DNA of 30,848 bases from a virus: the IMG/VR virus record IMGVR_UViG_3300029258_001604, positions 1 through 30,848 of that record; one strand, given 5' to 3'. Shown here piece by piece: positions 7,243 through 30,213 of this stretch (position 1 is the first letter of the stretch; the number at the start of each line of letters is the position of its first letter). The position numbers and the translations under genes were made by a program. The notes beneath the pieces were generated by a model. The model was not told the origin of the DNA. It did not search any database and worked only from the letters and a program-made list of their open reading frames with translations.

Positions 7243-10200
7243 TTATTCGTCTGCTAGTTCACCATAAAAGACTATCATATTAGCTACTCTATCCTGTGAA
7301 GAACCGCCTGCATCTGTGGTTACAAATCTAGAGGATTCTGGTCTTTTTTGAGAAGTGGCAATTGTTATGGTTCTACCTGTACCATCAGTCATACCTGCTG
7401 CAATCCAGTCAGCGTCTTTAAATGGAGTTTCAAAATAAACATCGAAAACACCAGCACTTATATCAATTACGGCAGATATATTAGATGATTTTCTTATTAT
7501 ATTGCCAGTATTTTGATCGAACAGTAACCATGCCTTTGCCTCACCTAAACTAGGCTTCACTTCTTCAATATCCTGCACCAAACTAAACTTACGCTCATCA
7601 CTTGAGCTTTGGTTTCCGATCTTTAGTGATGGGTCATTGCGGTGGACTGGAGTGATCACATCGAAAGCGTGAGGAGTGAATCCGTTAGCTGTATTACTGG
7701 TTATCTTTAAAGTATGCAAAGTTAGAGGCAGTCCAGTAATTTCAACTGCATTATGGCTTCCAGATTGCCCATTATAAACTCCAGTCGCAGCAGTAAAACT
7801 ACCACTGCCTCCACCAAGAATGTTTACCGTATATGCAGAAAAATCACTTGACCCATCTAATTCAAAAGTAGAATTGTTACTGGCTGAGTTACTTTCCCTT
7901 AGAATTATACCACTACCAAAAAAGCTTATTTGAATAGAATCACCAATGGTGTTGGTTTGAGGTAAAAATCCAGTAGTAAAACCTGCATCAAGACTTAAAG
8001 ACCATCCAGATCCCCCATACACCGCTTCTCTAGTATTAGCTTTTTGTAGAACTCCAGTGGCTATTTCAAATGGGTCTTGATTACCTGATTGACTTACAAA
8101 ATCAGCCATTAAATTATAATCTTCTAATTCAACTGCTGTAGCAGGTAAAGTAGGTCTTTTTGGTTCGTAGATTAATATATCTTGAAAACCTCCTGTATTT
8201 AACGCTGCGTTATTGAGTATTTTAACGGTATGGGTTCCGTAGGGAAGTCCCGATACAATTGGTTGAGTTCCATTTCTAGTATAAGTACCTTCTACATTAC
8301 CATCTACAATCACATCAATATCAGGAAAATTAGTAGGCGAACCAGTACTACCAGAAAATAAATCTATACCAGTACCTACAAAAGTTATAGTTATAAAAGA
8401 ACCTGAACCTCTTAATTGTATATCATCAACTCCATTAATCCTTACATTATTAGCTACTAGAGTTGTAGTTCCGTCATCTAATGTAAAAGCTAGATCTTTA
8501 TCGGTAAAATCTATCGCTGAAAAATCATCAGCTCTATTAGCTCCAAATTCACGAAAGTTAATTCTTCTAACAAGTTCTTCATCACTATGATCCGCACTTC
8601 CTAAGTAACTAGGAGAAGCAGGTACTTCAGTAAAAGCTTGTTTAAGTGTCGCATCGTCAACATCAAAATAATTAATAACACGAGCACCTTTAGTTCCTGT
8701 TAACGCAGCAGGCTTATAGGGTAAGCTAGAAGCAGAAGCTAATTCAGCTTTAGCAAGTCCAGCATATCCTGTACCTGGAAGTACATCGGATTGAGCTGCT
8801 TCGTTTAGGATTTCAAAACCGTAGAATCTAAAACTGTTAGCGTTACCGCTATTCATAGCAAGTTTAACAGTATGCCACCCTAAAGACAGTCCAGAAATAG
8901 CATTAAATACACTATTTTGTTTATAATTTCTACCTGCTAATACAAATGAGCCAGTAAACATATCGACAGTTTGATTAAATACACCGTCTACACTCACATC
9001 AAAAGCAGCTTGCGCTCCTGGCTGTCTACCAAGCCAATTAATACCTGTACCATAAAAAGTTATCTCTACAAAAGTATTAGGATCAGATCTTTCAGGAGAA
9101 TCTGCAATAACAAAAGTACCGTCGGACGTAGATTGTACGTCCCAATTCCCAACAACTCTGATTCTGGAGTCTTTTGAGTCGATTTCTTGTGTAATTTGCC
9201 CATTAGGTCCAAATTCATTTTGTAGCAAGGACAATGAGTTTACCATTATCCTATCAACAGGCATTAAACTCTTAAGAGTCTGTGATTCGTCTAGAACCTG
9301 AGCCCTATTTTGGATCTCTGTATTTGGAGCGTCAATGTACGCAGGCTCTACCATATTATTGAAGCTAGATTTGATGGACCCATCTTCAGCAGAACCGAAT
9401 GGAGTAAAGGGTTCACTTGGTTGTACGAAACCTAAAAGCCCACCTTCCATTTTAATTTCAGTGTTATTAGATCCATCGTGCATTTTTACCGAGCCTGGTC
9501 CTAAATGGATATCTCTCCATCTATTTCCAGCAGATCCTAAATCATATACGTTGTCTTCAGCAGGTATAAGACTAGTGTTAAGTGCATCTAGTTCAGCAAC
9601 ACGATATTGTGCTTTATGAACTCTAATAGGAGTTTCGGCTGGTAATGGTTGAGGGTTTCCACCTACAATCTCATAAATATCTACATACTTACCAGCAGCA
9701 GCGTCTTCTTCGTAAACTACGTTTCCGTCAGTATCGTTTTCGCCTACAATAAGTCTTTCAATGTCCTGACCGTTAACTTCAACATCAAGATCACCACGAG
9801 GAGCACCTGCGTCACCACCTGGGTTGTAAGAAAGAGTACCGTCTAAAGTTAAACGAGTTTTATTTGAAACAGTTGAAATAGTACAATTTACTGTACCAGT
9901 ATTGTCGGCAAAACCACGAGCAGATATTAATGTTTTCTCTGCAAGTCCTAAGCCCTCAAATGTATTTTCAATATTTACAAGCTCAAAACAGTCATCAACT
10001 ACAGCAGCAGCATCGTTAACTTGAGCATTAGCGTTTGGATTTAATGTGATTTGAGTTGAATCACCAGCATTATTGACTTCCATGTATTCGTGAGCAATAC
10101 TTATATCACTATTAGCAGGAACTTGAAAACTATCAACCTTCTTCATTAACACACCATTTCTGTAGAAACTATGTGCATTTGAGTTAAAACTAAATGTTTC

Positions 10201-10827
10201 GTTAAATGTTATGGTATATCCAGTTTGACCCTCTACTTTATCTCTGATGACAGATATAGTACCACCACCGCCAGCTCCACCGCCTCCGGTGAACTGAACA
10301 ATCTCATCATCAGTAATGTTTTCAATTGTTCCGGCATTGTTAAAAAGAGTAATATAACCAATAGTAAGAGCTTGTCCTGAAGGCTCTGGAAATTCTGCAT
10401 CGTCTTTTACTGCGTTAGAAGCAGCACCAGGAATAATTACGATTTCTGCGTCTTCATTGATCTCAATTAAAACTCTTAAATATTCATTGTTTGTGATTGT
10501 AATAGCAACATTTTGCCCAGCACTTGGAACAGCATCGTTACCAGAAACAGATGGAAAAGTAATTGTACCACCAGCAAAATCAAAAATAACATTATTGATT
10601 GGCTGGTTAGTTCTTTTTCTTAAAGTTTCTGGGTTAGTTATGATATTTGAACTAATATTAAGAATAAGATCAGAAGGATTACTTGCACGAAGGGCAAAAG
10701 GAGGTGTAACCTCTAAATCTATAGCAGGCAATATTTGCTTTAATGTTTTGTTTGAATCTACACCAGTCAACTGCTCTAGAGCTGACCTATGTTCTGATTG
10801 TCTGGAGTCAAATCTTTTAATTGTCAT
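7243..10827 (-). CDS. Tail fibre with galactose-binding-like repeats and fibre-tip C-terminal domain
   Basis: This encodes 1194 aa with an ATG start and AGGA 8 bases upstream. The N-terminal half is beta-rich with a Gly-rich linker (GGGGAGGGG) near 180-190. Near residue 424 is NVYDLGSAGNRWRDIHLG, a motif frequent in phage fibres just ahead of receptor-binding parts. Three modules of the form ITF.GTGI ... VDG ... GL..G.HTVKI begin near 590, 810 and 965; this pattern fits galactose-binding, jelly-roll carbohydrate-binding domains. The last ~110 residues (KAWLLFDQNTG ... VYFETPFKDADW) resemble a common fibre C-terminal domain. Residues about 490-700 are paralogous to the partial fibre at the left edge. 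It is expected to be a host-receptor or surface-glycan binding fibre. Confidence 0.87.
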   Translation of the reverse strand: MTIKRFDSRQSEHRSALEQLTGVDSNKTLKQILPAIDLEVTPPFALRASNPSDLILNISSNIITNPETLRKRTNQPINNVIFDFAGGTITFPSVSGNDAVPSAGQNVAITITNNEYLRVLIEINEDAEIVIIPGAASNAVKDDAEFPEPSGQALTIGYITLFNNAGTIENITDDEIVQFTGGGGAGGGGTISVIRDKVEGQTGYTITFNETFSFNSNAHSFYRNGVLMKKVDSFQVPANSDISIAHEYMEVNNAGDSTQITLNPNANAQVNDAAAVVDDCFELVNIENTFEGLGLAEKTLISARGFADNTGTVNCTISTVSNKTRLTLDGTLSYNPGGDAGAPRGDLDVEVNGQDIERLIVGENDTDGNVVYEEDAAAGKYVDIYEIVGGNPQPLPAETPIRVHKAQYRVAELDALNTSLIPAEDNVYDLGSAGNRWRDIHLGPGSVKMHDGSNNTEIKMEGGLLGFVQPSEPFTPFGSAEDGSIKSSFNNMVEPAYIDAPNTEIQNRAQVLDESQTLKSLMPVDRIMVNSLSLLQNEFGPNGQITQEIDSKDSRIRVVGNWDVQSTSDGTFVIADSPERSDPNTFVEITFYGTGINWLGRQPGAQAAFDVSVDGVFNQTVDMFTGSFVLAGRNYKQNSVFNAISGLSLGWHTVKLAMNSGNANSFRFYGFEILNEAAQSDVLPGTGYAGLAKAELASASSLPYKPAALTGTKGARVINYFDVDDATLKQAFTEVPASPSYLGSADHSDEELVRRINFREFGANRADDFSAIDFTDKDLAFTLDDGTTTLVANNVRINGVDDIQLRGSGSFITITFVGTGIDLFSGSTGSPTNFPDIDVIVDGNVEGTYTRNGTQPIVSGLPYGTHTVKILNNAALNTGGFQDILIYEPKRPTLPATAVELEDYNLMADFVSQSGNQDPFEIATGVLQKANTREAVYGGSGWSLSLDAGFTTGFLPQTNTIGDSIQISFFGSGIILRESNSASNNSTFELDGSSDFSAYTVNILGGGSGSFTAATGVYNGQSGSHNAVEITGLPLTLHTLKITSNTANGFTPHAFDVITPVHRNDPSLKIGNQSSSDERKFSLVQDIEEVKPSLGEAKAWLLFDQNTGNIIRKSSNISAVIDISAGVFDVYFETPFKDADWIAAGMTDGTGRTITIATSQKRPESSRFVTTDAGGSSQDRVANMIVFYGELADE

Positions 10828-16482: not shown

Positions 16483-16500
16483 CGTATTATGGAGGTAAAA

Positions 16501-16887
16501 ATGGACAAATTAGAAAAAGAAGCAAAGAAAAAAAGGTCAACTGACGTATATTCAAATACTTACGACAATGGTGGGTGGTCTAAGCGTGACGCACTGCCTA
16601 CAGGAGATCCTATTGGGGATGTAGTGGAAGAAGAGAGTAAAGACAAGAAGCCTAAAGCCGACTTTGCCAAGTGGATTGAGGATACAAAGAAATACAACAG
16701 TACAATGAGAGGAAGATTAATAGTACCTCAAGGTAAGGATTTAAACATAAAAGCCGAAGATTTCTATGGATTTCCTGAAATAAAGAAATGTTGCGAAAAA
16801 CCGCAAAAATATAAGAATATTATTAGTAACAACCTCAAATTTTGGGCGTGTAGAAACTGTGGAGCTGATTTAGGAGATGTCGAATGA
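16501..16887 (+). CDS. Small zinc-finger-tailed protein, first of cassette
   Basis: This encodes 128 aa starting at ATG 16501, chosen because GGAGGT lies 4 bases upstream; an ATG at 16489 lacks such a site. The first 60 residues are charged and probably disordered (KEAKKKRS, EEESKDKKPK). The C-terminus has Cys97-Cys98 and Cys117-x-x-Cys120 in CC ... YKNIISNNLKFWACRNCG, then ADLGD. This is a likely zinc knuckle. The 107-aa protein two genes on ends in the same way. Its stop overlaps the next ATG (ATGA), indicating coupled translation. I know of no assigned function. Zinc-ribbon tails on short acidic/basic proteins suggest nucleic-acid or host-protein binding in early infection; this is inference. 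Confidence 0.82.
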   Translation: MDKLEKEAKKKRSTDVYSNTYDNGGWSKRDALPTGDPIGDVVEEESKDKKPKADFAKWIEDTKKYNSTMRGRLIVPQGKDLNIKAEDFYGFPEIKKCCEKPQKYKNIISNNLKFWACRNCGADLGDVE

Positions 16888-17099
16888 AAGTCAAAGAACT
16901 TATAGAGAAGCTTCAACAATTTCCAGAAGATATGGAGGTTTTTACATATGGTGTGGCATGTACTGGTAATAGATTCAAATATTTAGCATATGAAGCAAAT
17001 CCTCAAGAAGAAAGATTTGTAAAACTAGAAAAAGACATACTTATAGCTCAAAGACCTTGTGAGGAGACTAGAGGGGCAAAAAAATGTCTCGTGATTTGA
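16884..17099 (+). CDS. Small conserved phage-type hypothetical protein
   Basis: This encodes 71 aa. ATG at 16884 overlaps the preceding stop, and GGAGATGT precedes it. The opening KVKELIEKLQQFPEDMEVFTYG is a pattern I recognise from many small phage and bacterial proteins in which a short helix is followed by a beta strand (LI..L...P.d..V). Those proteins have no firm function. There is no membrane segment. The 3' end overlaps the next gene by 16 bases, which fits a compact co-transcribed cassette. Confidence 0.78.
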   Translation: MKVKELIEKLQQFPEDMEVFTYGVACTGNRFKYLAYEANPQEERFVKLEKDILIAQRPCEETRGAKKCLVI

Positions 17100-17407
17100 C
17101 CGATGAGGAAAAATTATTAAAAGAATTTGAAGAGATGTTAGGCTCTGTCAATGACGCTCATATTGATGAAGAAGATGATGAGGATGATTTTGGATTTTAT
17201 TTTCCACCACATTTTGTTAATTACCCAACAGACAAAGATTTAGAATATCCCAGCAAAAAGAAAGAAGAAAAGAAAGAAAAAGATGAGCCACCTCCAATAC
17301 CTAAAGAGGCTACTTGTAAGCACAAGAACAAGAAAAAGGTTATTATAAGTGCTACTATGAAATTTTGGATTTGCAAGGACTGTAAGACTGATTTAGGAGA
17401 TGCTTAA
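17084..17407 (+). CDS. Small acidic zinc-finger-tailed protein, paralogue of the 128-aa protein
   Basis: This encodes 107 aa, with ATG at 17084 preceded by GAGGGG at 7 bases. It has an acidic tract (HIDEEDDEDDF, about 27-36) and then a Lys/Glu-rich linker (KKKEEKKEKDE). The C-terminal zinc motif has Cys78-x-His80 and Cys97-x-x-Cys100 in VIISATMKFWICKDC, then TDLGD. The tail aligns with that of the 128-aa protein (IIS..KFW.C..C..DLGD), so the two arose by duplication or share a swapped tail. The acidic and charged body differs between them, as if the tail is a common docking module. The function is unknown. Confidence 0.82.
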   Translation: MSRDLTDEEKLLKEFEEMLGSVNDAHIDEEDDEDDFGFYFPPHFVNYPTDKDLEYPSKKKEEKKEKDEPPPIPKEATCKHKNKKKVIISATMKFWICKDCKTDLGDA

Positions 17408-17700
17408 TGGATTTTAGAAACCCTATAGAGGAACAAGATGGATGGAAACTTTTGGAAGAAATTACTATTAATGATAGGACACTTATCGCTTGGTACAATC
17501 CTAATGATTCTATTATTAGTCTCATTATTACGCACCTGTGCGAACAACCTAACGAACTAAGTAAAAGAAGCCCTTATACAACTTGGGGATACGTAACACA
17601 TATGGAAACCAACATGTACACATGTGCTGAGGCTGCTGAGGTTGTTTCCTTATACTTACAAGATATAGAAAAAGAAAATGCGTGGTGGGAAAATGCTTAA
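17407..17700 (+). CDS. Hypothetical 97-aa soluble protein
   Basis: ATG at 17407 overlaps the TAA of the preceding gene (TAATG), and AGGAGATG provides the ribosome site. The protein is Trp- and Glu-rich with a helical C-terminus (AEAAEVVSLYLQDIEKENAWWENA). It has two isolated Cys residues with no metal-site spacing, and no membrane segment. I do not recognise a family. Gene order and overlaps place it in the small early-type cassette. Confidence 0.75.
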   Translation: MDFRNPIEEQDGWKLLEEITINDRTLIAWYNPNDSIISLIITHLCEQPNELSKRSPYTTWGYVTHMETNMYTCAEAAEVVSLYLQDIEKENAWWENA

Positions 17701-18405: not shown

Positions 18406-20016
18406 CTAAACTGGATCTTCACCCCAGACGTAAAATTTATCTGAGAATTCTGTACCCCATTTAGCTAACCCTATGTCGTTCGGGTACAACACTGTAATAA
18501 CGACCTGTATACCTGTAGCAGCTACCAGATTAATCAAGTCCTGAGCATATATACGACCTGATACAACGTCTGTAATATAAAAGGGATAATCAGAGCCATC
18601 TCTTGCTACATCATAAGGAAAATCTTGTGCCACTAAGGATATATTAGTTCCTGCACTATGTACATTCTGAAAAGAATAAGATGGGTTAATTAATATTTGA
18701 GTAGTTGATGGTCTAGATATATAAGGTACTGGACCCTCTTCTTTTGAAGTTCCAAAACCAAATATAAGCTTACCTTGATCATCAGGTATATCTGAAGCAT
18801 CGTCTACTTCAATAATAAGACTTGTGTTTTCATCTATGTCTTCAGTTGTATTACACTCTTCCCCACCAATCAAATATGGCTTGGCTGGATCAAATGTATA
18901 AGGACCAAGTTGATCTAGATCAGATGGACCTGTATCGTGTAAGTGAGCAGCACCTTGTCTATCACGTCTTACAACTCTGGTTGTAGCAGGTACGAATACT
19001 TCTAATAATCTATTTTCTGTTTGATATGCAGCAGCATAATTAACTTTAGAATTTAAAGTGAATCTTTTTGGGTTAAAAAATAAAATACCCTCATCAGTAC
19101 CTTGTAGTGTTGTTTCAGGAATACCAGCAGGATTTTCCCATTCTACATAAGCTTCACCTACCAAACCACCGCTTACTTCTGTAATAGTGAAAGTACCTTG
19201 ATTTGCACTATCAAAAGCAGAACCAAATATATTTACATAGTCATCTTTTTGAACTACACCAATAAATGGGTTTGGTCCACCAGACCAAGTAGCTCTAATT
19301 ACACCACCTGGCTCTTGAGATAACGTCCATTGAGTAGCTGCTACACCACCAGTAGGTCTGATCTCAGAAAACTTTAGCTTGTTTTGAGCTTTACCACCAC
19401 GAACTCTTACTGAAGAGGAAGGTCCATTGGTTTCAGATATAAGTGAAACATACCCACCATTACCATCATCTCTGGCAACAGCAGCACCTGTTTTACCTAG
19501 CCTTCTAATTTCTTTCGTAATAGCATCTGCTACTTCTTGAGCTGTAGCTGAGTTTATATTTGTAAATTGATTTGTTGTAAATGTAACTTCTACAGGCTCT
19601 TGATCATCATACTGAATAATCAATGTATCACCATCGTCTAGATCATAAGTCTCAAATTCTTCAGAGAATACTGTAGCTCTTACAAATTCATGACCATACA
19701 TTACCCTGAGGATTTCATGAACAAGATCTACAACCTGTTTACGAGTAGAAACCTCAATACCAATTTCCCTAAAGACTTCATCAGAAAGACCAATATTGTC
19801 TGGTCTAGTAAGATTACGACCAGCTAATAGTTCATCAAGATATCTACCATCAGCCGTTACAATATATAACTGATCATTAACAGCTTCTACATTGTCTATT
19901 AAATGTAAAGGACCACCAGCTAAGGCTTCTAAGATAGCGTCAGTCTTTTCACCCCTAACAGAAGGGTTTAAATACTGCCTAAGCCTCTGCTTTTCCTTAT
20001 CTCTAGTACTTGCCAT
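18406..20016 (-). CDS. Baseplate structural protein, 536 aa, sharing modules with the J-like protein
   Basis: ATG at 20016 overlaps the upstream TAA (TAATG), with AAGG upstream, so it is translated in step with the 1970-aa gene. The N-terminal ~110 residues are helical (ILEALAGG ... YLDELLAGRNLTRPD ... VVDLVHEILRVMYG), like the lead segment of baseplate wedge proteins. Residues about 150-210 (VTFTTNQF ... ATAQEVADAITKEI ... VSLISETNGPSSSVRVRGG) are a small beta/alpha module. VIRATWSGG ... DYVNIFGSAFDSANQGTFTI (about 240-280) matches repeats in the J-like protein. VDDASDIPDDQGKLIFGFGT ... EGPVPY (about 405-435) matches RVSDASEFPTTGQIYIGRGT ... EGPLDY near residue 110 of that protein. It is probably a wedge or arm partner of the J-like subunit. 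Confidence 0.82.
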   Translation of the reverse strand: MASTRDKEKQRLRQYLNPSVRGEKTDAILEALAGGPLHLIDNVEAVNDQLYIVTADGRYLDELLAGRNLTRPDNIGLSDEVFREIGIEVSTRKQVVDLVHEILRVMYGHEFVRATVFSEEFETYDLDDGDTLIIQYDDQEPVEVTFTTNQFTNINSATAQEVADAITKEIRRLGKTGAAVARDDGNGGYVSLISETNGPSSSVRVRGGKAQNKLKFSEIRPTGGVAATQWTLSQEPGGVIRATWSGGPNPFIGVVQKDDYVNIFGSAFDSANQGTFTITEVSGGLVGEAYVEWENPAGIPETTLQGTDEGILFFNPKRFTLNSKVNYAAAYQTENRLLEVFVPATTRVVRRDRQGAAHLHDTGPSDLDQLGPYTFDPAKPYLIGGEECNTTEDIDENTSLIIEVDDASDIPDDQGKLIFGFGTSKEEGPVPYISRPSTTQILINPSYSFQNVHSAGTNISLVAQDFPYDVARDGSDYPFYITDVVSGRIYAQDLINLVAATGIQVVITVLYPNDIGLAKWGTEFSDKFYVWGEDPV

Positions 20017-23000
20017 TACTCAACCTTAGAAATAGTAATATCGTTAACGATATCTAAAATAAGTGCTTTTTCACTTGGATTTACAACAATCACATCGTTA
20101 TTGATATCGTATTGAGGAGATGTTACAGAAACAGCCTTAACACCTGGAATACTATTAACAACAGCCACAATATCAGAAATCGCAATAGAAACACCTACAT
20201 CGTTAGAGTTGATAAGTGCTGCGATATTATTTCTAGCTTGCTCAACAATCTTACTAAAAGGAATACCTGTATTAACACGTACACCTACACCTACCTCAAT
20301 TCTTCTAACTAGAGGTGGTTCAATAAAGATTTCAGCTCCAGCAGCAGCAACACCAGGGTATGTTACATTATCTCTTGGATCACCGTAAACAATTCTATTT
20401 GACTCTGCAATAAGACCTGTGTTGTATCTATAAGAATCAAGACCACGCTTGACCTGTGTAGGAAAGTTCAATTTACCAATTGAGCTGAATGTAATTTCCC
20501 CAGCGTCCTTATTAACCTTTAAAAATTGCTCATCAGTATCGAAGGTTAAAATAGTTCTATTACTATTAGCAGGATCTACAGTTTTATTGTAGATTTTCTT
20601 ATATCCAGAGTATAGGAGTGATTCTTCTACATATACCTGAATAGCTTTCTCTTCTAGCTGTACATTTGTCTTGGGAGCTAGAATAGAGCCTACAATAGCC
20701 TTTTCCTTAGATATAATATCTATAATTACATATTCTCCAATGTTATCACCGTCAAATACATCACCAGATACAATGAACCTGTCTCCTACAACTGTAACGT
20801 CATATTCAGAAAACTTAAGAGAAGGGGTGTGAATTTCAAAAACATCTGAAATAGTAAGACCTGTTTCATTTACTGCTTTTGCATTTACAACTTCGACAAA
20901 ATTATCTCCAGAGTCAACTACTAAAAATTCACCTTGATTATCAGCGTTAAAGTCTGTACCGAATGTAGCTACATCACCCATCCTAGCAACACTTAAATCC
21001 GGCTGAGTTCCGTTAGTATCCCATTCAACTCTCATAATACCACCAGTGGCTACGACATCAAATTGAGTAGTGCCGTCAAACCCTAAAGATCTGAGGTTAT
21101 CTACCACATCTACAATTTCCTCTACAGCATTTTCATTTTCGATATAAAAAGAATTTTCATATGTTCTAATAACTCTAAAAGTACCTTGGTTAAGAGTAGC
21201 AAATGGATCTCCAATTATTACTGTATCACCTTCTTCAATTTTAGCTGAAACAGACATACTGCCAGCAATTAAAGACTCGGCTATAGCGTCTACACCTGAA
21301 GAATTTTCTACTACGATAGTAGTTCCGTCATCAGATGTACCTATAACTCTGAAAGAACCGTTGTTTTCTGCAACAGATAATCCAGATATGGTGAAAATAT
21401 CACCTCTTTGAGCTTCTATAAAGTTTACAGTACCTGAGGCTACAGTATATTCTGTAAATCCTGTATCATCATTTTTATCAACTGAAATGTCAGCAGCACC
21501 ATCGTTTATCTCAACAGTTTTGCTAAATACTGGAGCAGATCCAGTTCCATCCCAAGTAACACATACCAATTTACCGTGTTTTTCGACATGAAAAGTTCTA
21601 CCTCTATCTCTAAAGAAATTTCTAGGCTCACCAAAATAATGATTACCTTCATCTCTATTTGCTAGAGTTATAGTAGTCTGTCCTGCTGTAGGTACGTTAT
21701 CTTCAAAACTTACAGTAGTAGCAAAAGCAAGTCCTACATCTTTCTTTTGAGCTTGAGCGGCACTTAATTTAACCCACTGACCAGCTTCAAAACCAATTCC
21801 AGAACTCTTAGAAATTACCGTATTCATGAATTCAGTATCAGGTACTCTAGAAGCAGCCTGTAAAACCTGAGCATCAGCAGAATTACCTTTACCGCCAGTA
21901 ACTTGGACAACACCATTAGACCCTAAAAGATCTGTTCTGAATTGAATTTTACTTTCTCTTTCAGATGTAGTCACCTGAGCAAGTGTTGTGATACCAGTTA
22001 CGGCTAAGATGTTCATAAAATCCACAACCTGCCTTGCGGTAGTGGGGATCAATCTAATTTGCTCACCAGCATTAAATGCGTAAGCATTAGCTGTTGCTGT
22101 GGTAAAACTAGGGATTGTAAGGGCTTGTTTAAGTCTAAATTGATACGTTGGAGCTACAGCGTCTAAATCACTATTTTCAATCCAGTTAATACCGTCAAAC
22201 AAATCAATTCCTGTAGCGGTAAAATCTGTATCTTCCTCTGTAGACTTAGCTAAAACACCTGCACCAGTCAATCCATTATCATCAATAAGTTCTGCTGTTA
22301 AGTAATCAGCAAGATTATCAGTAACATAAGTTACAATTTCATCAGCAGTGGTATCGTTATTTTCAAATAAGTTAATTGTAGTAGAAGTAAGTGTTGCTCT
22401 ATCAATCTCAGCGACAGCAGCTCCAACTTCTCTAATAACAGTAAAGGAAGAGGCTGTGGCAGAATCTACTCTAAAAGTACCTGTGTTAGCTGGATCAAAC
22501 TCTCCATTATCAGTAATAGTAGCATAACCGCCTGAAGATAGTGCAGCATCAATTGTAGGAGCTGTACCAGTTCCGTTCCAAGTGTACGTTACCTCATCAT
22601 ACGTACCGAAAGTGGTAATTGTAACATCCCACTCAGTAGTTCCGTCAATATTATTAGATATTGGATTTCCTGATTTAAGATTGATTCTTACACTTGTCTT
22701 GTCAGTAATAAAAATATTGTGTCCAATTTCTTGGTTAGCTACTGTAGGATACGTATAGCCTACATTGTATCTTTCACCAGCCAATCCCCACTCAGCAGAT
22801 CTATAAAGAATAGCGTCTTCATTTACCAAAGGATTAGTAGGATGAAGTACATTTCTTGCTTTCATTAGTACTTTATAATTTTTAAAGTCAAAAGTACCAC
22901 CAAAGAACTGTTCAAATTCAATACCTGCACCAGAGTCTACATCATAAGCTCTGAAGTTATTTGAGTTAATACCCATAGTATTATTGACCTCAGCAGTTCT

Positions 23001-25928
23001 ATACATATTGATTGGGAATGTTTTCTCTGAGGGATCGTTATCTAAAATAACAACAATACTATCATTTGCAGTAAACTGAAAAGTATCAGCTATATAATAC
23101 CTATCGTTTTGTCTAAGTCTTCTAATTAATTGAGAAGGACTGATGTTTACAGTCAAACCAGATAGAGAATCTATTTGATTTCTTTCTTTTGAAGCCATAC
23201 TTTCTTGAATTGCAGTTAGAGGCTCTAAAAAAGATACGATTACGTTAGGATCTACACCCAACACAGCCAAGTCTACTGCACTATCAAAATCACCTATAGT
23301 AGAATTTGGCGGATCTGCGTCAGTATCGTCAGTAATTAGGTTATGAACAAACAAAGGAAAGTCTGAATCTGAACTTTCACTTTCATAGAAAGCAAATAGA
23401 GAGATTTCACTTTGACCTCTAGTATTTTCAGTAAAATTAAGAGCTTTTGCTGGGTCATTAAAAGTAACAACAAAAACCTCACCATCTGTATCTTCTGATT
23501 CAGTAGTTACTATTAATATCTCATCGCTTTCAGTTGAAGAAGTGGCTCCTACCAAGGAATCTCCCAAAAGACTTGCAATAGTGTTAATATTATAAGCACC
23601 TGCTGGTATCTTAGTTTTTTGAACAGCTTTATCTGTTCTCACAATAGCAATACCTTCACTCCAAACAATTGGACCTTCAGCAACAGCCGTTACGAATTCA
23701 TTAGGGGTTACTTTGAGATCTATTGTACTACTTGTCTTAGCTTGAACTCTAGCTTCTAGTCTATTACCTGCTGCTAAATCCTCAGACCAAATTATGACCC
23801 AATCTCCTACCTCTACATTATCAAATGCTGTGGCATTATTAGACTCATATCTGACGATATTAGCTGATGGCTTAGTAACAGTAATTGTTGTATCTGCCGT
23901 AACACCAGTGTTGACAAATATAGCGTCTTTATTATCAATTAAAAACCACACATAAGCATCGTTAACTAATGTAATACTCCCACCAAGGATTGGTGCTGAA
24001 TCTAAACTACCTTTTGTAAATTCAGTACCAGCACTAAGACTATCGCCTTCTTCAAGTGCTTGAGAAAGTTTAAATTGAGCTGTGTTTCTTGATAGTGTAA
24101 AGTCAGACTCCTTACCTTGAGCCGTAAGTCCTTGGGCAAGTGAAAACACACCTTTATTAACTAAGGTAGATATATTATTGATAGCAAGTTCTGCTCTAGA
24201 TGTCTGACCTAAGTTTGAATTAAGGACAATTCTATTTCCATTAATAGAAGCTGTAATACCTGTAACTTTTTCGTTAATCACATTAACCCATGATTGTAAC
24301 GAGTTATTTTTATCAACAGTTACGTGAGTACCTTCAGCCAGGAAGTCTGAATCATTAAAAGTATAAGTTATTTCATTAGTACCATCTACTGATATAATCA
24401 ATGTCTCGCCATCAGCGATAGTGTTTGACCAGTTAATTTGTTCTTCTGAAGTTACCTGGGCAACACGACCATTTCTAGATAGTGGAAGTTTATTTTTAAA
24501 AAGTCTTAGCGTTTGAATCTCACCAGCAGGAAGACCTAGTGCATCACCTGCGTCACCGCCTGTAGTAGGACTTGTCTTTTCCACAAACTCATCAAGCTCT
24601 TCTCTTGCAAAGATACTAATTCTAGTTCCGTTATCAATAGTACGAGCTGAGAATGTGATATTTGGGTTTGCATTAATAGAAGCAACAACTTCAAATGCAG
24701 TAGCGTTTCCGTTTGATCTAAAATCACCCTCATTAAAAACATGTTCGCTAATATCTCCACCTACCAAAATAGCAAGCCTGTCATTAGGGCTAATGCTAAA
24801 AGGAGATGTTTCGTTAGAAAGTAAAGATGCTTTAGCTACTGAAGTCTGACGACCTCCTGTAGCAAGTTTGAAAAATCTCTCACCACCTAATGCAGAGTCT
24901 ACAATAAATTCTAGACCTGTACCAGCAGCAGCTTCTTCATATCCAGTGCCGTCATCGATAAACAGTGTAGTTTTCTCACCATCAGAGAATATTTCATTAG
25001 ATGTAACTGTAGCATTCTCATCTGGAGCTTGAGCACCTAGCACAGAAGAAGTTACAGCAATTGCTGTACCAAGACCACGAGAAATCCTGGCTCTTTTAAT
25101 TTTAGATCTAATTTCATCATCGGTATCTGAGTTTTTACCTGTATTAAAACCAATGTCGTTTGTAACCGTAGCACCAGTAAAAGGTGTTGCAGCAAAACGC
25201 TTAATGGCATTTCTAGGTACGTTACCTTCACTGCCTGGAATTTGTGCAGCAACAGGTACGTTTGTAATTACGTTCTCACCATCAAGAATTACAGCTTGCT
25301 GGGTTAGGGTAAAATTAATATCAGATGAAGCACCTGAAGCAGGAGAGGATACTACCTCACCAGCAGAAACAGTACGAACCCCACCCTGAGCTAGGATTAC
25401 TGATTCAGATATATTGTGAAATTTTGTTGTTGGGTTAACAAGAGTAAGTTCCCAGAAGCCTCCTACCTGAGTAGTAGCACTATAATCAAGTGGACCCTCT
25501 ACGTTAGGAGTTCCACGACCAATATAAATTTGACCTGTAGTAGGAAATTCAGAAGCATCTGAAACACGGATAATACTTGAACCGATATTTGGAGGGTTAT
25601 CTCCAGCATATATTTTGGTAGCAATCTTTTCAAAAGAACTATCACGGATAGTAACAGTACCTGTAGCTACCTTATCACCTGAAATGGCGATATTTTCTTC
25701 TTCTGCAATTCTTTTGAGCTTTTCCCCTGTTGCCCTGTCTACGTTGAAATCTCTAAGTATAGAGAAGTTATCGGCTGATGCTCTGTATACTGATTGAGCT
25801 ACTGCCTCAAAGAAAGAGGTTACTACCGACCCTGTGTTTAAGTCGTTAACACCAATTTTAGCAACGTAGGTTCTCAGCATATCACCGAGAATTTGCTCAT
25901 ACGATTTTGGAGTTGGAGTTCCTGACAT
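20016..25928 (-). CDS. Giant baseplate J-like wedge protein (1970 aa)
   Basis: This has an ATG start with AGAGGGAT just upstream. The N-terminus (SVVTSFFEAVAQSVYRASADNFSILRDF ... ATGEKLKRIAEEENI) and the C-terminus (VGVSIAISDIVAVVNSIPGVKAV) match the ends of baseplate J / gp47 / gp6-like wedge proteins, which join fibres to the baseplate ring. Such proteins usually have a few hundred residues. Here more than 1,300 residues of beta modules lie between the two halves. These include FNDSDFLAEGT.. near 524 and at least five units ending in GTFRV-like strands (about 1152, 1524, 1582, 1662, 1730). The repeats also occur in the 536-aa neighbour. The enlarged middle may form arms that reach the fibres or host surface. 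The J identity is confident; the role of the insert is inferred. Confidence 0.85.
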   Translation of the reverse strand: MSGTPTPKSYEQILGDMLRTYVAKIGVNDLNTGSVVTSFFEAVAQSVYRASADNFSILRDFNVDRATGEKLKRIAEEENIAISGDKVATGTVTIRDSSFEKIATKIYAGDNPPNIGSSIIRVSDASEFPTTGQIYIGRGTPNVEGPLDYSATTQVGGFWELTLVNPTTKFHNISESVILAQGGVRTVSAGEVVSSPASGASSDINFTLTQQAVILDGENVITNVPVAAQIPGSEGNVPRNAIKRFAATPFTGATVTNDIGFNTGKNSDTDDEIRSKIKRARISRGLGTAIAVTSSVLGAQAPDENATVTSNEIFSDGEKTTLFIDDGTGYEEAAAGTGLEFIVDSALGGERFFKLATGGRQTSVAKASLLSNETSPFSISPNDRLAILVGGDISEHVFNEGDFRSNGNATAFEVVASINANPNITFSARTIDNGTRISIFAREELDEFVEKTSPTTGGDAGDALGLPAGEIQTLRLFKNKLPLSRNGRVAQVTSEEQINWSNTIADGETLIISVDGTNEITYTFNDSDFLAEGTHVTVDKNNSLQSWVNVINEKVTGITASINGNRIVLNSNLGQTSRAELAINNISTLVNKGVFSLAQGLTAQGKESDFTLSRNTAQFKLSQALEEGDSLSAGTEFTKGSLDSAPILGGSITLVNDAYVWFLIDNKDAIFVNTGVTADTTITVTKPSANIVRYESNNATAFDNVEVGDWVIIWSEDLAAGNRLEARVQAKTSSTIDLKVTPNEFVTAVAEGPIVWSEGIAIVRTDKAVQKTKIPAGAYNINTIASLLGDSLVGATSSTESDEILIVTTESEDTDGEVFVVTFNDPAKALNFTENTRGQSEISLFAFYESESSDSDFPLFVHNLITDDTDADPPNSTIGDFDSAVDLAVLGVDPNVIVSFLEPLTAIQESMASKERNQIDSLSGLTVNISPSQLIRRLRQNDRYYIADTFQFTANDSIVVILDNDPSEKTFPINMYRTAEVNNTMGINSNNFRAYDVDSGAGIEFEQFFGGTFDFKNYKVLMKARNVLHPTNPLVNEDAILYRSAEWGLAGERYNVGYTYPTVANQEIGHNIFITDKTSVRINLKSGNPISNNIDGTTEWDVTITTFGTYDEVTYTWNGTGTAPTIDAALSSGGYATITDNGEFDPANTGTFRVDSATASSFTVIREVGAAVAEIDRATLTSTTINLFENNDTTADEIVTYVTDNLADYLTAELIDDNGLTGAGVLAKSTEEDTDFTATGIDLFDGINWIENSDLDAVAPTYQFRLKQALTIPSFTTATANAYAFNAGEQIRLIPTTARQVVDFMNILAVTGITTLAQVTTSERESKIQFRTDLLGSNGVVQVTGGKGNSADAQVLQAASRVPDTEFMNTVISKSSGIGFEAGQWVKLSAAQAQKKDVGLAFATTVSFEDNVPTAGQTTITLANRDEGNHYFGEPRNFFRDRGRTFHVEKHGKLVCVTWDGTGSAPVFSKTVEINDGAADISVDKNDDTGFTEYTVASGTVNFIEAQRGDIFTISGLSVAENNGSFRVIGTSDDGTTIVVENSSGVDAIAESLIAGSMSVSAKIEEGDTVIIGDPFATLNQGTFRVIRTYENSFYIENENAVEEIVDVVDNLRSLGFDGTTQFDVVATGGIMRVEWDTNGTQPDLSVARMGDVATFGTDFNADNQGEFLVVDSGDNFVEVVNAKAVNETGLTISDVFEIHTPSLKFSEYDVTVVGDRFIVSGDVFDGDNIGEYVIIDIISKEKAIVGSILAPKTNVQLEEKAIQVYVEESLLYSGYKKIYNKTVDPANSNRTILTFDTDEQFLKVNKDAGEITFSSIGKLNFPTQVKRGLDSYRYNTGLIAESNRIVYGDPRDNVTYPGVAAAGAEIFIEPPLVRRIEVGVGVRVNTGIPFSKIVEQARNNIAALINSNDVGVSIAISDIVAVVNSIPGVKAVSVTSPQYDINNDVIVVNPSEKALILDIVNDITISKVE

Positions 25929-25958: not shown

Positions 25959-28622
25959 CTACAAGTCAAAAGTTATTGGAACCACACCAGTTCCATTAGC
26001 CACTTTAACCGCCATATCTATGGCTAGTGTTGCACCATTAAGTCTTATACTTATTCTTTCGATTGCACTAAATCTTGGATCATCTTGGATCATTTTATTC
26101 AGTGCGTTAATTATTTCACCATTTTCAATATCTGCTACAGAAATACCGTGATCCAATCCTAAACCAAAGTCAAGATGTCTCAATAAAGTACCTTGTTTAG
26201 TTCTAACCTTAAGCTTAAGAGCCTGAACAAGGTTTGTAAGACCATTGGCAAGTCTAAAATCACCAAACTGATCTAAAGCGACATCCCCATTATCAGTCAA
26301 TAGAAAATCGATCTTAGAAATTCTAGTAAGCTGATCTTCCTCTAAGTGAGTAGGTGTCTGAATTCTATCATCTTCTTCAGCAGGTTCTTCTACTGGTATA
26401 TAAATCTGATTTTGACTATTAACAGTACCTGGCAAGAAACCTTGAATAGTAGCATTTTCTGCCGTAGTCAAAGAATCTAAATTAGGTAGTCCATCAAAAC
26501 TAACTAAATAATTATTATCACCAATCTGCTCGACATCAATAATTTTTCTTGTAAACTTAGGAACACTGTCACTTCTTAAGACAATTGTTTGACCTATATA
26601 AAGCCTGCCCTCAGTATCGTCCACATTTATCTGGCGACCGTCACCATTAGACAATAAAGTGTAACTAAAACCTTCCTCATCAATGTATGGCGAGGTAAGT
26701 CTGTTTAACGTAGCTATTTCAACCCACTTATCAGGATCATTTAAGTACCTAGCAGCAATCTCTTCAATTGTTAAGCCAAATGGCACTGGAACCAATAGTT
26801 TTGACTGAGTAACGTCAAAATCAATACCAGCCTCATTAGCGAGTCCACCTACGAATTGTAATGGGTTTTCTATTGAAAAATCATCCCACTGCAAAGTGGC
26901 TGTTAAAAGATCGTACATCTGTAAAGATTCCATCAAAGATGCTAATATCTCATTTTCTTCGAGAGACATAGGTAAAACCCTATCTCTTGGGTCTGGTTTG
27001 TTATAGAAATCAGAGTATGTTTCATCTCCAGCACCAAAGTTATTGGAAATATCTAACATTAACTCTTCAATCTCAGTTCTAAATTCTTTTAGATCTGCAA
27101 CGGTAAGGAGTCGTACTCTTTCAATTTCTTCATCAACCCTTTCCTGCTGCTCTCTAGATAATGTAAGGTCATCTGTATTTATAGCATCAAATATATCGAA
27201 ATATTCTTCAGGATTCTCAAAAATCTGTCTTGTTTGGTCAGTTTGTAGTGTTTGAGCAGACCCAATACCTAAAGCTCCACTTTGTACAGCAGCCTGGCTT
27301 AGACCTTCATTCTTTCTACTCTCAGCCACAATTTGGTTAATAGCAATACCAGCCCTAGCCTCTTGTGTATTAGCTCTTAAACCGCCTGCACTGACCCCTG
27401 TAGCCGATGTTCCCACTGGTCCACCATCTGGACCTCTCTGGAAAGAATTAGCCACAATATTTAAAGAGTCTTTAATCGAACTGCTAAAATCATCCACTAA
27501 TTGACGTGGTAAGTCAATAACGGTAAATGCAAGTCCACCTAAATCCTTTACAGCAAGTGCTGTTTGTCTAAGTACGTTCAAAGGTCTTTGAAAGTCACTT
27601 CTAACAGCCTTAACAAGATTAATGCTATTCCCTAAAACTCTCCTGGTCTCTCTAATAGTACCAAGTATACGTTGAAAAGTATTAGCGTCAAGCTGTGGTA
27701 GCTCCTGAGAACCTGGAGGAGGTGGGTCAAGTTTAATTCTTTTCCAAGCCTTAAGCTGGAAACTAAACTGATATTCCATTGGTTTTTGTTGGTTCTGCTC
27801 CAAGTTAAAACTAATTGGAGTAACAATAAATGCTTGATTTTGTTTAGGAATGTCAAATACTAATCTATAATTTTTTGCTTCTGGTTTCTTTTTAAGTTGA
27901 GCATATCTCTCTAAAAACTGACCCATAAGCATAGCTTGATAGTAACCAGTTGAAAATAGAGTGGATGGGTGATCACCAGGACTCTGAGCATCTGATACAG
28001 ATGCAGGATGAGATCCGTCAAAAGCTCTCTTAACTCTCTGAAGGTCATCTAATACAGTATTAAACTGCGTGAGTGTACCTCCAAATATACTACCTAGAGA
28101 GGTAGGAGACTTAGGAACACCGCCTACAGTGGGTCTCTGAGCCCATATACCAGTGGTTCCAGACGCACTGATCATTTTATATTTAACACCATTATGCTCT
28201 TCTACAATACCACGCATGGTTGAAGATGTATTAATAGCAAATTGATCTTGAATTCTCAACATTTGAGGCGTAATAGGTAAGTTAAACTCCCAAGATCCAT
28301 TTTGAATCTCCTGAGTAAGAACATACTCAATACCGCCATTAGGAGCTTCTACCTTAGATCTCTTATTTCTTAGAGACCCACCACTAGTGCCGCCCAGTAT
28401 CCTGTCAGGCTGTCTCACATCAATAACTATCAACCTATATGGGTACAGTTGGTCCCATCTTCTAGTATCAATGTCTTGAGGAGCAAAAAAAGCTTCTGTG
28501 GGATCGTTTATATCCCAAGGCAAATCTTGAAGACCACCAAAGGTCTGCCCTGCGTCACCACCGACACCGAGCTGATTTCCTATAAAATTTTGTGCGTCCC
28601 TTATTAAACTATCAAAAGCCAT
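25959..28622 (-). CDS. Baseplate protein: LysM domain plus gp25-like C-terminal domain (887 aa)
   Basis: This has an ATG start with AAGGAAA about 10 bases upstream. The N-terminal ~310 residues (YRLIVIDVRQPDRILGG, NGSWEFNLPITPQML, EYQFSFQLKAWKRI) resemble the N-terminus of XkdP/gp53-type tail proteins that sit on the tube end. Residues about 310-480 form a linker of mixed helices and Gly/Ser-rich sequence. About 484-527 is a charged coiled-coil-like helix (EQQERVDEEIERVR). A LysM-like segment (VPVPFGLTIEEIAARYLNDPDKWVEIATLN) lies near 610-650. The last ~120 residues (DFLLTDNGDVALDQFGDFRLANG ... LRHLDFGLGLDHG ... DPRFSAIERISIRL) fit the T4 gp25 / P2 W baseplate wedge family. It would be a hub-to-wedge connector that carries functions usually split over several genes. 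Confidence 0.87.
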   Translation of the reverse strand: MAFDSLIRDAQNFIGNQLGVGGDAGQTFGGLQDLPWDINDPTEAFFAPQDIDTRRWDQLYPYRLIVIDVRQPDRILGGTSGGSLRNKRSKVEAPNGGIEYVLTQEIQNGSWEFNLPITPQMLRIQDQFAINTSSTMRGIVEEHNGVKYKMISASGTTGIWAQRPTVGGVPKSPTSLGSIFGGTLTQFNTVLDDLQRVKRAFDGSHPASVSDAQSPGDHPSTLFSTGYYQAMLMGQFLERYAQLKKKPEAKNYRLVFDIPKQNQAFIVTPISFNLEQNQQKPMEYQFSFQLKAWKRIKLDPPPPGSQELPQLDANTFQRILGTIRETRRVLGNSINLVKAVRSDFQRPLNVLRQTALAVKDLGGLAFTVIDLPRQLVDDFSSSIKDSLNIVANSFQRGPDGGPVGTSATGVSAGGLRANTQEARAGIAINQIVAESRKNEGLSQAAVQSGALGIGSAQTLQTDQTRQIFENPEEYFDIFDAINTDDLTLSREQQERVDEEIERVRLLTVADLKEFRTEIEELMLDISNNFGAGDETYSDFYNKPDPRDRVLPMSLEENEILASLMESLQMYDLLTATLQWDDFSIENPLQFVGGLANEAGIDFDVTQSKLLVPVPFGLTIEEIAARYLNDPDKWVEIATLNRLTSPYIDEEGFSYTLLSNGDGRQINVDDTEGRLYIGQTIVLRSDSVPKFTRKIIDVEQIGDNNYLVSFDGLPNLDSLTTAENATIQGFLPGTVNSQNQIYIPVEEPAEEDDRIQTPTHLEEDQLTRISKIDFLLTDNGDVALDQFGDFRLANGLTNLVQALKLKVRTKQGTLLRHLDFGLGLDHGISVADIENGEIINALNKMIQDDPRFSAIERISIRLNGATLAIDMAVKVANGTGVVPITFDL

Positions 28623-28916: not shown

Positions 28917-29078
28917 ATGCCGTGGTACATTCTAATACTAATGTGTTTTCAAGTACTTATAGTATTTTTGATGGTTATGACCATGTATAAAAGATATAAA
29001 AATTATAAAGTTAAACAACTCAGGAAGAGGTTCAAACTCATTAAAGGAGAAAAAGTTGGAAGGAAAATTTCTAGTTGA
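28917..29078 (+). CDS. Tiny membrane protein with basic tail (53 aa)
   Basis: I translated this by hand. ATG at 28917 is 1 base after the previous stop, and it ends at TGA 29076-29078. Residues 3-23 (WYILILMCFQVLIVFLMVM) are a membrane segment, followed by a strongly basic tail (YKRYKNYKVKQLRKRFK), giving an inside-facing C-terminus by the positive-inside rule. It overlaps the PhoH start by 23 bases. No clear Shine-Dalgarno sequence is seen, so it may depend on coupling from the basic-protein gene. The function is unknown. Confidence 0.6.
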   Translation: MPWYILILMCFQVLIVFLMVMTMYKRYKNYKVKQLRKRFKLIKGEKVGRKISS

Positions 29079-30213
29079 CACGAATGTAATAATGTTAGAC
29101 CCATACTGCTTGACAAAATTAGGAGGAACCGTATTAATCACAACAACCGTATTAGAAGAATTAGACAAACATAAAACTGACAATGGAGAAAAAGGAAGAA
29201 ATATTAGAGAGTTTGCAAGGATTATAGACAAAAACAAACTCGAACATATTGAATTTATACACACTGACTACGAAAGTATTCCAGTAAATGATGATAGAAT
29301 TATTGAGGCTGCTCGTGAAGCCAAGGCTGTATTGGTAACTAATGATATACTAATGAGCATAAAAGCTAAAGCAGTTGGTATTAAAACCCAGAGGTACGAG
29401 CCTGTTTCTATAGTTTGCGACAGAGCCTATACCGGACTTGTAGATTCTAGAGGTGAAGAATTTAAAGGCGATCTAGAGCCTAACCAGTTCTTGCTTTCTG
29501 ATCAAGGTCTGTTTTACAAGAAAGGTAATTCTGAAAAAAGACTTAGAAAAGACAATCGTGTATGGGGTATTACACATAGAAATGTCGAGCAAAAATGTGC
29601 TATTCACGCCCTTCTCGATGACAATATTAAACTTGTAACAATTAGTGGTAGGGCTGGTACAGGTAAGACACTACTTGCTATAGCCTGTGGATTAGAGAAA
29701 ACCATAAGCGAAAATAAGTACCAAAGACTTTTAGTATCAAGACCAGTAGTTCCTATGGGTCAAGATATTGGATATCTACCAGGTGATATTAACGAAAAGC
29801 TTGGTCCATGGATGCAGCCTATATTTGATAACATAGATTACCTATTTAATATCGAAGGTGGGGAGAAAAGAAGTTTTGACGCATACCTTGAACTTGCTAA
29901 AGAAGGTATCTTAAAAGTTGAGGCACTTACTTATATTAGAGGTAGAAGTATTCCTGATCACTATATTATTATTGATGAGGCACAAAACTTAAGTAAACAC
30001 GAAGTTAAAACCATTATATCTAGAGCTGGTGAGAATACTAAGATTATTTTGACTGGAGACCCTGATCAAATCGATAATCCAAAACTAGACTCTATTAATA
30101 ATGGATTGACATATGTTATAGAGAAATTTAAAAATCAGAAAGTGGCGGCTCATATAACGCTTTCCAAATGTGAGAGGTCTGAGCTTGCTGATGTAGCTGC
30201 TGAGATCTTGTAA
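29056..30213 (+). CDS. phoH: PIN-PhoH family ATPase/ribonuclease
   Basis: This encodes 385 aa, with start codon TTG at 29056 and AAAGGAG 6 bases upstream. Residues 1-115 are a PIN nuclease domain with the acidic set Asp8 (LVDTN), Glu34, Asp79/Asp80 (NDDRIIEAA) and Asp97 (VTND). Residues about 170-385 are the PhoH ATPase, with Walker A GRAGTGKT at 198-205, SRPVVPMGQDIGYLPG at 228-243, Walker B YIIIDEAQ at 303-310 and LTGDPDQID at 332-340. The C-terminal KCERSELADVAAEIL fits the family. The PIN-PhoH (PhoH2) arrangement is known from bacteria, where it has been linked to RNA unwinding and cleavage. In phages PhoH is common but its role is not settled. All key residues are present, so it is probably active. 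Confidence 0.93.
   Translation: MEGKFLVDTNVIMLDPYCLTKLGGTVLITTTVLEELDKHKTDNGEKGRNIREFARIIDKNKLEHIEFIHTDYESIPVNDDRIIEAAREAKAVLVTNDILMSIKAKAVGIKTQRYEPVSIVCDRAYTGLVDSRGEEFKGDLEPNQFLLSDQGLFYKKGNSEKRLRKDNRVWGITHRNVEQKCAIHALLDDNIKLVTISGRAGTGKTLLAIACGLEKTISENKYQRLLVSRPVVPMGQDIGYLPGDINEKLGPWMQPIFDNIDYLFNIEGGEKRSFDAYLELAKEGILKVEALTYIRGRSIPDHYIIIDEAQNLSKHEVKTIISRAGENTKIILTGDPDQIDNPKLDSINNGLTYVIEKFKNQKVAAHITLSKCERSELADVAAEIL

Follow-up and report, generated by a model that had tools for sequence, protein, structure and literature searches.

Examination of a 30.8-kb virus record (the window, meaning the whole stretch of DNA analyzed) uncovered a tail gene cassette that reads right to left, from a hub gene through a J gene to a gene for a candidate wedge partner. 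The central open reading frame (ORF; 20016-25928, minus strand) starts with ATG, encodes 1970 aa, and lies at exactly the coordinates and on the strand of the original prediction. The upstream hub protein (887 aa; 25959-28622, minus strand) contains a gp25-like C-terminal domain and matches phrog_975 (baseplate protein, E 8.9e-19), with a further PF10934 match below the cut-off. In 60 of 69 relatives, its gene lies immediately upstream of that for J; in one distant relative (L242, 935-3478) the hub and gp25-like parts are apparently encoded by two genes (319 and 527 aa) rather than one. The start of the 536-aa wedge-partner candidate (18406-20016, minus strand) overlaps the J stop codon by 1 base, and this gene directly follows the J gene in 72 of 76 relatives.

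The 1970-aa protein is the J wedge protein of a myovirus baseplate, equivalent to gp6 and gp47, and profile searches, the N-terminal wedge fold, and the C-terminal domain all place it in the J family. PF04865 (Baseplate_J) matches residues 185-280 with an E value of 4.3e-6, above the curated cut-off (26.6 bits vs. 21.1 bits with residues 1-1100 as the query, and 29.5 bits in a second search), and is found in 33 of 40 aligned family proteins. The protein also matches phrog_6, annotated as a baseplate wedge subunit (E 1.1e-16). A family profile of residues 1-345 retrieved solved J or wedge chains of 348-489 aa from the PDB, the best being 9euf_C (5e-13), 9g8s_C (1e-9), 9ndy_H (2e-8), and diffocin TRI-2 (1e-5). 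Profiles were needed at this distance: a phmmer search of the PDB with the whole protein returned nothing real. A profile of the C-terminal 124 residues had no match in the PDB, and the J identity of that end was settled by fold. Pfam matches to Trans_coact and Peptidase_S24 fell below the cut-off and were set aside.

Structure prediction, proposed originally as a check and conducted here in two segments, returned J folds at both termini. The AlphaFold model of residues 871-1970 has a pLDDT of 84.8 and a pTM of 0.75, and that of residues 1-1100 is only fair (pLDDT 73.5, pTM 0.34). Residues 1-284 (25077-25928, minus strand) comprise N-terminal helices and the J beta-domain that make up the wedge core, and align with J wedge chains of phiCD508, A-1(L), phi812, Mu, P1, and others at VIA-align Z 10-15 over ~185 residues. 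At 10-16 A, the rmsd of these alignments shows a different placement of the sub-parts; what matches is the individual parts rather than a single rigid body. The C-terminal end (residues 1872-1970 plus stop; 20016-20315, minus strand) is predicted to adopt the J C-terminal domain, and ~90 residues of it align (Z 8-11, rmsd 1.9-3.1 A) with the corresponding domains of pyocin PA0618 (5ces), Pam3, E217, A-1(L), and phiCD508. The J-type signatures originally noticed are borne out at both ends by the predicted folds. Within the N-terminal part, residues 99-180 (25389-25634, minus strand) form a small beta-barrel (Z 7-10 to barrels such as T5 pb9), and a VSDAS...GRGTPN.EGP.Y element at residues 117-176 has a counterpart in the downstream gene (BLASTP, 38% identity across 64 aa, with residues 399-455 in the 536-aa protein). 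Residues 285-335 (24924-25076, minus strand), poorly modelled, are probably a helix and two strands forming the first half of the J middle subdomain, as judged from canonical spacing, and it is probably here that the protein departs from the J fold into an insert.

Canonical J/gp47/gp6 proteins (P2 gpJ, 302 aa; Mu gp47; XM1 gp16, 404 aa; and those of phi812, phiCD508, and A-1(L)) share the same N-terminal wedge fold and C-terminal domain, but differ in the distance between the two parts. This distance is 74-105 aa in phiCD508, A-1(L), Pa193, Bas63, and diffocin, and 1587 aa here (residues 285-1871), in keeping with the original figure of more than 1,300 residues. The protein is four to six times the usual J size, with ~1,500 extra residues, all internal. 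That J proteins normally span a few hundred residues was confirmed in a survey of 115 PF04865 rows from 398 genomes of one phylum, where the median open frame is 382 aa and 97 of the 115 rows are at most 513 aa; 15 rows lie between 671 and 1299 aa, and three exceed 1400 aa. Two of these three are one secreted adhesin-like frame, and the third is a distant member of the giant-J family. A 2,726-aa frame in the survey (G347:C3) was rejected as a baseplate J: it encodes a secreted, adhesin-like protein that is duplicated and shows a J-like beta motif. The 2726-aa secreted adhesin-like protein encoded in one bacterial genome (L243, 1470-9647, minus strand) has two J-like beta motifs and is duplicated internally over a long stretch.

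In order to find relatives, short ones included, patterns from either J end were used, and the best 80 of 116 and the best 80 of 179 candidates were examined. A single unbroken ORF holds both J ends in each of 76 distinct, complete relatives of 1,830-2,822 aa (counted stop to stop), and no short relative was found among the candidates examined. Contigs bearing the relatives are as long as 149-177 kb, and of the annotated phage records Myxococcus phage Mx1 (169.6 kb) alone gave a match. A first scan of genome contigs gave no relative; a distant one of 2,932 aa was recovered on a contig binned with a bacterial genome (N-terminal profile E 6.5e-86, C-terminal profile 2.7e-15). Separate genes joined by a sequencing error, named at the outset as an outcome that would overturn the reading, were looked for and not found, and with 76 complete single-ORF relatives and no short one among the candidates examined, gene fusion was excluded. 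The chance that the ORF arose through misassembly, or through the recent joining of adjacent genes, is accordingly negligible: broken copies of the J gene, which may reflect assembly error or decay, do occur on a few metagenomic contigs (L007, L016/L056/L076, and L064), but the same architecture is present in the 76 ORFs from many metagenomes and in the closed genome of the cultured phage Mx1. Between the window and relative L003, the insert carries 447 synonymous vs. 70 nonsynonymous codon differences, and by this measure it is under purifying selection. A very long ORF with J ends could also encode a precursor that is cut during assembly, the insert becoming a separate virion protein. This is improbable, since no result of the analysis points to it, cutting would have to free both sides of an insert nested in the J fold, and close relatives differ little in overall length (1970 aa in several). 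The original description, a J protein made larger by beta-rich material inserted within it, is shown to be right by sequence, by the predicted structures of both ends, and by the 76 relatives.

The insert spans residues ~336-1855 (~1,520 aa; 20364-24923, minus strand), is absent from solved J proteins, and is conserved in all relatives. It had originally been placed at about residues 330-1730, an end that proved too early. Identity to the Mx1 protein, calculated per 100 residues, is 39-56% in the J N-terminal part, 42-50% for residues 301-600, 19-39% for residues 601-1800, and 37-38% in the J C-terminal part. The first ~265 residues of the insert are thus as conserved as J itself, and the remainder diverges. 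The conserved stretch includes a domain resembling part of a tail sheath protein (residues 486-607; 24108-24473, minus strand), whose best match, 7kh1_A6, aligns with Z 11.3 and 2.5 A over 108 residues (Foldseek probability 1.00). This 497-aa chain of the XM1 baseplate entry is one that we take to be the 495-aa XM1 sheath protein. The model of residues 391-608 also resembles the E217 sheath (Z 8.9). Further along, residues 638-843 (23400-24017, minus strand) resemble domains D2-D3 of FliD and the outer domains of flagellin (Z 8-9, with ~100 residues aligned at ~3 A), and residues ~1471-1563 are predicted to resemble, at a middling Z of ~6, the FCCH barrels of ubiquitin-activating enzymes (E1). 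Since the model of the N-terminal half is only fair, the placement of these domains along the insert is tentative. Middling fold matches to endosialidases and GTPase barrels (Z 6-8) were set aside as common arrangements of unrelated barrels, and no Pfam binding domain was found in the J protein of the window.

At least five GTFRV-type repeats had been noticed in the insert; four are clear, and a diverged fifth is detected with a pooled profile only. The pooled 49-aa profile, trained partly on the repeats that it scores, gives 22-61 bits at five sites starting at residues 1128, 1504, 1562, 1646, and 1710, compared with a best score of 6.7 bits in 500 shuffles. On the minus strand, these are repeat 1 (residues 1128-1178; 22395-22547; 44.6 bits), repeat 2 (1504-1552; 21273-21419; 44.3 bits), which falls within the FCCH-like region, repeat 3 (1562-1610; 21099-21245; 61.0 bits), repeat 4 (1646-1694; 20847-20993; 42.7 bits), and the diverged repeat 5 (1710-1759; 20652-20801; 21.8 bits). 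With single-repeat profiles scored against 200 shuffles, repeats 2-4 each find the others and repeat 1 finds repeat 3 (8.4 bits), while repeat 5 does not rise above the shuffles and is too diverged for this approach. The protein contains six instances of the pattern [NQ].G.[FYW].[VIL], five of them within the repeats, vs. 0.31 per shuffled sequence.

Most length variation in the family is concentrated at three sites, all empty in the window copy, which follow residues ~1548-1554, ~1620, and ~1673 (minus-strand positions 21284, 21068, and 20909, the first taken at residue ~1548). Modules at these sites are carried by ~47, 5, and 53 of the 76 relatives, respectively, and range from units of ~80 aa and ~122 aa to tandem arrays and an Ice_binding-like domain. 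Inserts of 80-720 aa occupy the first site, the second holds ~80 aa, and the third usually holds ~122 aa. Arrays reach 615 aa; the array in L040 is built from repeated YVWFNV units, about five of them in tandem. In two metagenomic relatives the first site contains an Ice_binding domain (PF11999), with E 4e-29 in L072 and E 1.5e-35 in L139. These Ice_binding-like domains occupy residues 1597-1804 of L072 (L133) and residues 1536-1727 of L139, and a tblastn search found no similar phage record. In the model, the sites after residues ~1620 and ~1673 are predicted to lie in loops or hairpin tips, the latter at the tip of a hairpin with DSSP strands at model positions 796-803 and 807-811. Such hot spots mark places where these baseplates accept foreign domains in nature.

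J is among the most conserved parts of contractile tails, and its ring opens at firing. The reading that we prefer, at a probability of roughly 60%, is that J bears a large appendage that has opened its middle subdomain, the proximal part of the appendage being structural and the distal part an exposed platform for exchangeable modules of surface-contact type. In this arrangement, residues 1-284 and 1872-1970 would form the usual wedge core, present by analogy in two copies per wedge and hence in about twelve copies per virion, and the opened middle subdomain would carry the ~1,520-aa beta-rich appendage. Because the proximal ~265 residues match J in conservation and include the sheath-like domain, they are probably fixed structure, packed on the baseplate or on the first sheath ring. 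The distal ~1,200 residues would form a string of FliD/flagellin-like and small-barrel (FCCH/GTFRV) domains projecting from the wedge. This part is variable, accepts foreign domains, and is built from domains of extracellular-filament type, and is therefore probably exposed. Loops of the distal barrels serve as tolerated insertion sites, at which small modules have been gained, lost, and multiplied in the phage lineage. Since modules are swapped at the distal sites, the most likely function is that of an exposed platform that touches the host envelope or holds fibres, and that would keep a mechanical link to the wedge ring, the opening of which sets off contraction. Long arms, receptor-contact surfaces, or fibre-docking surfaces, as in the original prediction, are plausible, and the swappable distal modules (Ice_binding-like in two relatives), together with the FliD/flagellin-like and sheath-like domains, speak for them.

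A possible, if unlikely, alternative is a fibre dock, in which the insert would be a lateral arm for tail fibres or spikes, standing in for the additional domains of T4 gp7/gp10 or for the gp7-like portion of Alg12. The downstream partner may have a gpI/gp7-like role, and at 536 aa it is small beside T4 gp7 (1032 aa; PMC10457771), so the docking surface could have moved into J. In extracellular contractile injection systems (eCIS), gp7-like parts hold fibres (PMC8894135), and several large spike or fibre candidates follow the cassette in the same direction of transcription. Exchangeable modules such as the Ice_binding domain, however, would be unexpected in a conserved dock. As for the partner itself, a profile built from it found no match in the PDB, and phrog_1160 matches only the copy in the distant relative L242, a weak indication of gpI/gp7 identity. 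The partner and J share two module types, the VSDAS element and the GTFRV repeat, a sixth copy of which is found at residues 254-307 of the partner (29.8 bits). The Mx1 partner (WNM70275.1; L018 25793-28741) contains a large insert, annotated as kelch repeats, that is absent from the window partner, and the L242 partner contains a YVWYNV module in the same region.

The only named phage relative, the Mx1 protein annotated as baseplate protein J-like protein (WNM70274.1; OR576727.2), is a full-length homologue of 1925 aa with about 33-35% identity. Mx1 is a 169.6-kb contractile-tailed phage of Myxococcus whose genome announcement does not discuss the giant J protein (PMC10720576). Its J differs in having only two recognizable GTFRV repeats and several other small insertions, and its locus differs in that 11 genes, nearly all on the opposite strand, separate the hub and J genes. 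The opposite-strand genes in this interval (L018 13815-19922) include NAD-salvage genes, among them nicotinamide phosphoribosyltransferase and NMN adenylyltransferase. Further large J-like proteins were identified by fold. An inner baseplate peripheral protein of phiKZ (9xqs, ~960 aa) is a large beta-rich chain with a J C-terminal domain at residues 840-966 (Z 7.7), but it is about half the size and matches weakly overall (probability 0.35); no large J-like gene was found in the part of the phiKZ record examined. By fold, the C-terminal half is matched best (E 8.8e-62) by proteins of uncultured Caudovirales phages in UniProt/BFVD that carry the automatic name 'Baseplate protein J-like' (A0A6J5L250 and others). 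These proteins evidently belong to the giant-J family or one near it, and no paper on large J-like proteins of uncultured phages was found in the open-access literature.

Enlarged J proteins are also known from contractile injection systems. Alg11 of AlgoCIS is a J-like wedge protein in which domain IV (residues 278-643), with two CBM-like modules, forms a cage (PMC8894135), and the extra domain of the J-like Cis11 of the Anabaena CIS likewise forms a spike cage (PMC8894136). Movement and opening of the AlgoCIS cage have been proposed to trigger firing (PMC8894135, PMC13314943). Inserts of the giant J subunits could in the same way enclose the central spike in a large cage or skirt, which would act as a second-stage trigger by opening when the target is touched, and host-contact-type modules at the hot spots would fit such a role. 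We consider this rather doubtful, as fold comparisons of the window protein turned up no CBM-like domain and the insertion site appears to be different. Like the giant J, Alg11 and Cis11 are wedge proteins enlarged by internal domains, of surface-contact type in Alg11 (PMC8894135, PMC8894136), but they total only ~1,012 to 1,227 residues, the Alg11 insert is ~366 aa vs. ~1,520 aa here, and they are not phage proteins. Their insertion lies at the tip of domain III, and the place in the window J appears different when judged from chain ranges only. In the eCIS J chains of PlPVC1 and PVC (9qgl, 6j0n), extra residues precede the end of the J N-terminal part and are followed by a normal ~90-aa spacer. 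By chain ranges, the eCIS inserts therefore appear to lie within the J N-terminal part and not in the middle subdomain, and the giant-J insert, larger and apparently at another site in the fold, looks like an independent elaboration.

Returning to the platform reading, the ~1,520 extra residues per chain would, if twelve copies are present, add an estimated ~2 MDa to the baseplate. A more speculative extension, which we hold to be quite unlikely, is that in this lineage of ~150-177-kb myoviruses the insert has become an evolvable organ for sensing receptors or surfaces, set directly in the wedge ring that controls contraction, whose exchangeable adhesion modules, such as the Ice_binding-like domain and the tandem YVWFNV units, touch the host and relay the contact to the wedge without a separate fibre protein. 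As the cultured phage Mx1 encodes a giant J, target sensing by a wedge protein, an idea raised for AlgoCIS, is testable in a phage.

The window also encodes separate tail-spike candidates, and primary receptor binding is therefore probably theirs. One is a 1194-aa protein (7243-10827, minus strand) that begins with a carbohydrate-esterase domain (CE2_N) and weakly matches an endosialidase. The other, of 2012 aa (1167-7205, minus strand), contains BNR/sortilin-type repeats; it is another giant that probably belongs to the virion, and may be a spike built of several propellers. Three small plus-strand ORFs (16489-17700) are found among the minus-strand tail genes, and a PIN-PhoH fusion protein is encoded on the opposite strand at 29056-30213 (plus strand).
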